From positions 372,001 through 436,000 of the forward strand of contig CP073750.1 in NCBI GenBank assembly GCA_024398135.1: 64,000 nucleotides of DNA. The letters are read 5' to 3'. The notes below the pieces were generated by a model. The model saw nothing but the letters and a program-made list of their open reading frames with translations. It had not been told where the DNA came from and made no database searches. The position numbers and the translations under genes are program-made. Positions 19,842-21,553 of the stretch are shown in pieces (position 1 is the stretch's first letter; each line of letters begins with the position of its first letter). Origin of the DNA: a bacterium SCSIO 12643. Lineage in GTDB: Bacteria > Bacteroidota > Bacteroidia > Flavobacteriales_G > Salibacteraceae.

Positions 19842-21323
19842 TTACTTTTTCTCCGATTTCTTTGCTTTTTCTGCTTCCTCAGCTTCTGCTGCTTGTCTTG
19901 TTTCATATTGCTTAATGAAATCAGGCATTTGCTCTGCATTGATTTTCTTCGCAATAATCATTTTATTTTCATCCAGTAAATAAAACTGCGGAGTTGAGAA
20001 GATATCCCAGTAATCCCTGAAGTTCAAGCTATTCAATGTTGTCTTACCTTCTAAAATGTATTTATGTGCATCCTTATTTATTTCAGGATTATCTGATACA
20101 TCAATCCAGGTATAACCCTGCTCCTTGATATAAGCAGGCCAATCTTTATTGTCAAACTCTGTACTTACTGCAAATACCTCTACTTCACCTTTATTCTCTT
20201 TGTAAAACTCCTGAAGTTTCGGCATTTCTTTTTTACAGTGTCCACAATTTGGATCCCAAAATACCACCACAGTATATTTTGCTTTAACATCATATAAAGA
20301 CCTCCAGTTAGAATCCACATCCATTAATACGATATTTTCAGCCTTTTTCCCAATCAACAAATTCTTTCTGGTGTTATACATCTTTAAAATCTCGTCCAAT
20401 TTGTCATCTTCAACCCACCAGGCTTTTCCTTCAGCGTAATAGTTTTCAGCGATACACACAAATACACCATCCATTCCCATAATATCCGACTTTTCAAAAG
20501 TGTTTGTTGTATACTGAATAATATACTTGTACATCAAACTTGTATCCGATGCAGTTTGGCTGGTCAAATACTGAACGGCAGCACAAATAGAATCCGGTAC
20601 CTGTGGAGTTAGCTTAGTTAGATACGTCTCAATCTTTTGGTTTAACACCGGAGTTCTTAACAAACGGTCATCTTTTAGATCTACATTATCGAAATAGTGA
20701 TCATGATAATATCTAAAGCGTTTTTGATCATCCTTTGAACCATCTTCTTTCTTGAATTCAGGTACATTGATTTCATCAGAAGTACTTAACACTTTTGCGG
20801 CAAAAAGCTTTTCATTCTTCTTTAAATACTCCGCCTTAAATTTTTCTGCTTTTTCCTGTTCCTCCTTAATTTGCGCATCAATCTTTTTAACGTTTGCTCC
20901 TTCTTCTGCTTTTTGGTTATTCAAATCTGTCATTCTTTTTTGAACACCGGTTACAAATTTCAACTACGCATAAAAAGCTTTATTTTCTTCAGAAACCTTC
21001 ACAATCATATTGGCCTCAGGATTCTGAATTGTGGTTTCCATAACAATCTTTTCTTCATTTATAACCACTTGAAAATAGGTCTTATTATCTGGAAATATCA
21101 CAGCATAAATACCGCCTGGTTTCGTTTCTTTCCCTTTGAATCTTACCACTCCATTTGCATCGGCAACTGTTGTATCATTATAATACATTTTACCCCCAAA
21201 ATAGTTGGCTAAATACATCGTAGTATCGGCAATACCGTCAATTTTAAATGTGAAATCGTGCTGAGCGTAAGAACTAATTGTTGATAGAAATACAGTAGTT
21301 AAGAGTAATACCTTTTTGATCAT
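19842..21323 (-). pseudogene. DUF4369-TlpA thiol-disulfide oxidoreductase, split by an in-frame TAG
   Basis: One reading frame from ATG 21323 to the stop at 19842 is interrupted only by TAG at 20964-20966; with it read through the protein would have 493 residues. N-terminal half: signal peptide and DUF4369-like beta domain, ending KAFYA. C-terminal half: starts LKFVTGVQ, coiled coil, then a TlpA/thioredoxin domain with CGHC (DPNCGHCKKEMP) and a charged tail. Separately the halves are a secreted orphan domain and a redox protein without a signal peptide, so neither makes sense alone. Either a recent nonsense mutation, a sequencing error or readthrough. No frameshift is seen and both halves look well preserved. 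Confidence 0.85.
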
Positions 21324-21350: not shown

Positions 21351-21382
21351 CAAATGTAATTGCTTTGGCATAATGACTCCAA
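21351..21382 (-). promoter_or_regulatory. Promoter of the DUF4369-TlpA gene
   Basis: On the minus strand TTG (plus-strand CAA 21380-21382), 21-base spacer, TACATTTG (plus-strand 21351-21358). It lies 28 bases before the ATG at 21323. An intact promoter argues that the interruption downstream is recent or tolerated. Confidence 0.75.
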
Positions 21383-21553
21383 AAATGAAGATAAAATGCC
21401 GCACAAATTTGGCTTAACAATTCTTTAACAGCATAAAAAAAGTTAAATGGTTTGATTCTAAACCGCTAGATTCCCTGGTCTCTACCATAATCCTACGTTG
21501 TTCTTTTATAACTTATAAAACTTCTATTTATCCATCCTTATTTCTCCTCAAAA

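Follow-up and report, generated by a model that had tools for sequence, protein, structure and literature searches.

In the 64,000-nucleotide stretch of DNA analyzed here (the window), a gene for a predicted thiol-disulfide protein is interrupted by an in-frame amber codon. This raises the questions of whether the locus holds one gene or two, and whether the stop is a mutation, a misread base, or a codon that is still translated.

Layout of the interrupted gene

The reading frame occupies positions 19842–21323 on the minus strand (493 codons plus stop). Its ATG start codon lies at 21323–21321 and its terminal TAA at 19842–19844. Translation revealed a single interior stop, a TAG at 20964–20966 (minus strand), which corresponds to codon 120 and gives the junction FYA-stop-LKFV. 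The sequence and its translation thus agree with the original prediction that the frame is broken by this TAG only. The part upstream of the stop (residues 1–119; 20967–21323, minus strand) comprises a signal peptide, with cleavage expected by eye near SSYA/QH, and a DUF4369 beta domain (residues 26–117 in Pfam; strands at 22–110 in the structure model). The downstream part (residues 121–493; 19845–20963, minus strand) comprises a helical region, in which DUF5106 matches at residues 197–301, and a thioredoxin-like domain (AhpC-TSA/Thioredoxin_8, residues 324–456), and has no signal peptide of its own. All three Pfam domains (PF14289, PF17127, and PF00578) scored above cut-off. The CGHC active-site motif (residues 360–363; 20235–20246, minus strand) was invariant in a 26-sequence alignment, in which the Thr-Pro loop (T444-P445) was also conserved. 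Taken through the TAG, the frame therefore contains both DUF4369 and a thioredoxin-like domain with CXXC. The DUF4369, signal peptide, and CGHC TlpA domain had been described correctly beforehand, whereas the proposed coiled coil proved to be the helical region that includes the DUF5106 match.

Based on its domains and motif, the interrupted gene is predicted to belong to the DUF4369-TlpA thiol-disulfide oxidoreductases. It has the domains, CGHC motif, Thr-Pro loop, signal peptide, and domain order of these Bacteroidota proteins, and differs from them in the stop at codon 120, which is found in the window copy alone. Full-length orthologues have the same domain order, and because they continue past codon 120 without a stop, the locus is one gene and not two. 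Pfam and these orthologues bear out the assignment of both sides to a single protein; in the full-length homologues, the halves are not separate genes. A TTG immediately after the TAG opens a 373-codon ORF, from which a second protein could be made. It is nevertheless extremely unlikely that the two parts are now produced and used separately, given that full-length homologues are encoded by a single gene, that the second part lacks a signal peptide whereas the intact protein is exported, and that the break does not fall at a domain border.

The position of this break was evident from the structure model of the read-through protein, which was confident (mean pLDDT 91.7). Codon 120 is located within a predicted helix (residues 112–138), just past the beta domain. 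According to the model, truncation would remove the thioredoxin-like domain together with the helical region. Among solved structures, the nearest were Bacteroidota thioredoxin-like proteins: the possible thiol-disulfide isomerase domain 3hcz from Cytophaga hutchinsonii, which matched the thioredoxin-like domain in sequence (E 2.9e-30) and fold (TMt 0.87), and the Bacteroides caccae protein 4yod, which matched in fold (TMt 0.70 over 297 columns). ResA was listed beside these two among the closest solved thioredoxin-like proteins. By sequence, all these solved chains match the C-terminal part only (residues 200 onward) and not the DUF4369 domain. No second protein of DUF4369-DUF5106-TlpA architecture was found in the genome. 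The other matches cover the thioredoxin-like domain only, with about 30% identity, so there is no protein of the same architecture to stand in for the interrupted one.

Codon 120 in relatives and the state of the downstream part

Homologues were gathered from whole genomes and GTDB contigs and aligned in 100 rows, with two same-genus loci entered twice. At codon 120, three rows were gapped and one was masked. Among the 95 readable homologue rows, the residue was Tyr in 77, Phe in 9, His in 8, and Asp in 1, and none had a stop at this position; only the window copy has one. Both same-genus relatives carry TAT, from which (or from TAC) TAG arises by one transversion. A single base change is thus sufficient to restore the Tyr codon, as had been proposed. 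The gene neighbors are in identical order in these two relatives. In a sample of the order, an orthologue was present at E<=1e-50 in 37 of 42 genomes (including the genome of the window), and none of these orthologues besides the window copy had a true interior stop. A TAA inside each of the G002 and G025 homologues was rejected as an interior stop, as both are natural gene ends. Intact orthologues therefore have a sense codon at position 120, as is expected for a recent nonsense pseudogene.

The sequence beyond the stop showed no decay. None of the 51 downstream columns that are conserved in the family and the genus was lost in the window copy, no second stop occurs in the 373 codons after the TAG, and the divergence of the downstream part from the outgroups was no greater than in intact relatives. 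With zero events, neutral decay limits the age of the stop to below about 0.017 substitutions per site (95%). The nearest relatives are ~70% identical in protein and their synonymous sites are saturated, so that dN/dS is uninformative at this distance and these relatives are too far removed to date the change. The absence of decay implies that the stop is young, that the protein is still produced, or that the base was miscalled, and the downstream data alone do not separate these three. Their ranking follows from two findings described below: no tRNA that decodes TAG was recognized, and the surrounding sequence appears to be accurate.

Decoding of TAG and accuracy of the sequence

The genome (4.12 Mb, one contig) was searched for a means of decoding TAG. 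The whole-genome search, which scored 150 of its 367 first-look candidates, gave 49 tRNA matches, and ARAGORN found the anticodon CUA in none of them. The search for an amber-decoding tRNA that the original prediction had called for was thus negative among these 49 matches. Two weak matches without an ARAGORN call were interpreted as Pro UGG and Lys UUU. Release factor 1 (RF1) was present above cut-off. Pyrrolysine insertion was rejected, as the best PylS match reached 21 bits against a cut-off of 178. TAG terminates 55 of the 216 long coding-like ORFs in the 464 kb sampled; it is an ordinary terminator in this genome, and there was no sign of general readthrough.

Two side observations concern the tRNA genes. 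A dense array of at least nine of them (L137:169-1180; G000:C1:2647068-2648079) includes an unusual tRNA-Phe with the anticodon AAA and degenerate Pro-like copies, and resembles the tRNA arrays of mobile elements or phages. An amber-decoding tRNA in this region (genome 2646900-2648300) was considered and rejected, since the ARAGORN calls all have other anticodons and the weak match is Pro UGG by hand. Tandem tRNA remnants lie near a tRNA-Phe on the minus strand (L149:145-280; G000:C1:3945544-3945679) and scored 42.9 bits as YrlA, short of the cut-off of 69. Since the genome gave no match to a TROVE (Ro) protein, these remnants are probably tRNA pseudogenes.

These results bear on whether a near-cognate tRNA reads codon 120 often enough to be useful, which would yield some full-length protein, perhaps in reduced amounts. 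No CUA tRNA was found, RF1 is present, and the stretches screened showed no further conserved gene interrupted by TAG. The same TAG was shared by no relative in the alignment or the order sample, which argues against programmed readthrough. In addition, the base after the TAG is T, and UAGU is not a favorable context for amber suppression. On the other hand, the downstream part is conserved as in intact relatives, and bacterial genes with in-frame stops and dN/dS below 1 have been described, many of which were argued not to be pseudogenes (PMC7918605). Overall, useful readthrough of this kind appears improbable, and it is highly improbable that a near-cognate tRNA (such as tRNA-Tyr) decodes the TAG efficiently enough to give useful low-level full-length protein from a gene that is still under selection.

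The accuracy of the surrounding sequence was assessed on 29 window genes that could be compared with same-genus relatives. An interior stop was found only in the thiol-disulfide gene, and frameshifts in none of the 29; the other flagged rows were shadow frames or extensions ahead of the start codon. The window contains nine in-frame ORF pairs that are parted by one stop, and this gene was the sole pair found with both sides in one known protein. No further conserved split gene was found when the screen was extended to 464 kb (the window and 400 kb of sampled stretches; 11% of the genome). Of the other in-frame pairs that were followed up, those with an early ATG past the stop or with differing Pfam families on the two sides were rejected as neighboring genes. 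One pair (L162:16715-18142) had a Pfam match on neither side. Elsewhere, a run of 83-codon ORFs with an exact 252-base period (L169:11340-13607, minus strand) is probably a long tandem-repeat gene viewed from one strand.

A base error in sequencing or assembly would mean that codon 120 is in fact Tyr in the organism and that the gene is intact. The isolated single substitution at a conserved codon, the undecayed downstream part, and the wide retention of the gene are all consistent with such an error. The 29 compared genes, free of frameshifts and other interior stops at 37% GC (the GC content of the window), and the assembly of the genome into one contig speak against it. We consider a base error possible but doubtful.

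The most likely reading and its meaning

The most likely reading, which we hold to be probable, is a recent nonsense mutation at codon 120. A single recent substitution would have changed TAT or TAC to TAG in a single-copy gene that is otherwise intact and encodes a secreted DUF4369-DUF5106-TlpA protein. Translation would then end after 119 residues. What remains would be a secreted DUF4369 fragment that stops within the first helix past the beta domain, a few residues from the start of that helix, and lacks the catalytic domain. Any product restarted from the following TTG or an ATG would be without a signal peptide and would remain cytoplasmic. We regard the allele as probably young and strain-level, either a loss of function or a polymorphism. 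We infer both the loss of the protein and the reality of the TAG base in the organism. Two points weigh against recent loss: the family widely retains the gene, which makes its loss somewhat unexpected, and the absence of decay is equally expected from readthrough or a base error. The original prediction had listed error, loss, suppression, and readthrough as options. Recent loss is favored by the tests, followed by error, given the missing suppressor tRNA, the presence of RF1, the lack of other in-frame TAG patterns in the screened stretches, and the undecayed downstream part.

In-frame stops are widespread in bacterial genes and tend to be short-lived (PMC7918605), and the case in the window is therefore ordinary: it is a broken (or misread) gene and not a new decoding mode. 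It resembles the nonsense-interrupted genes of that study in its single in-frame stop, conserved flanks, and apparent youth, but it would fail the artefact filter used there, since the stop is not shared by a second genome. The locus calls for annotation as one interrupted gene rather than a pair of proteins. A real stop would leave the genome with no intact copy of a protein that most of the family keeps, making it a small natural knock-out; if the codon were read through, the gene could serve to test how nonsense codons are tolerated in Bacteroidota.

The region upstream of the gene was also conserved. A non-coding block with TGTTAA-N5-TGTTAA direct repeats (21370–21450, minus strand) is intact in comparison with both same-genus relatives and is a probable promoter or regulator site. 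The earlier statement that the promoter looks intact thus stands as conservation of this upstream region, while the promoter itself is a prediction. The repeats resemble direct repeats to which OmpR-type regulators bind, a likeness that serves as a lead only, and the block is possibly a candidate site for such a regulator. The longer TGTTAA-repeat pattern occurs once in the genome, upstream of the thiol-disulfide gene. Several homologues in the family (L008, L010, L011, L013, L014, and L019) likewise have GTTAA repeats upstream.
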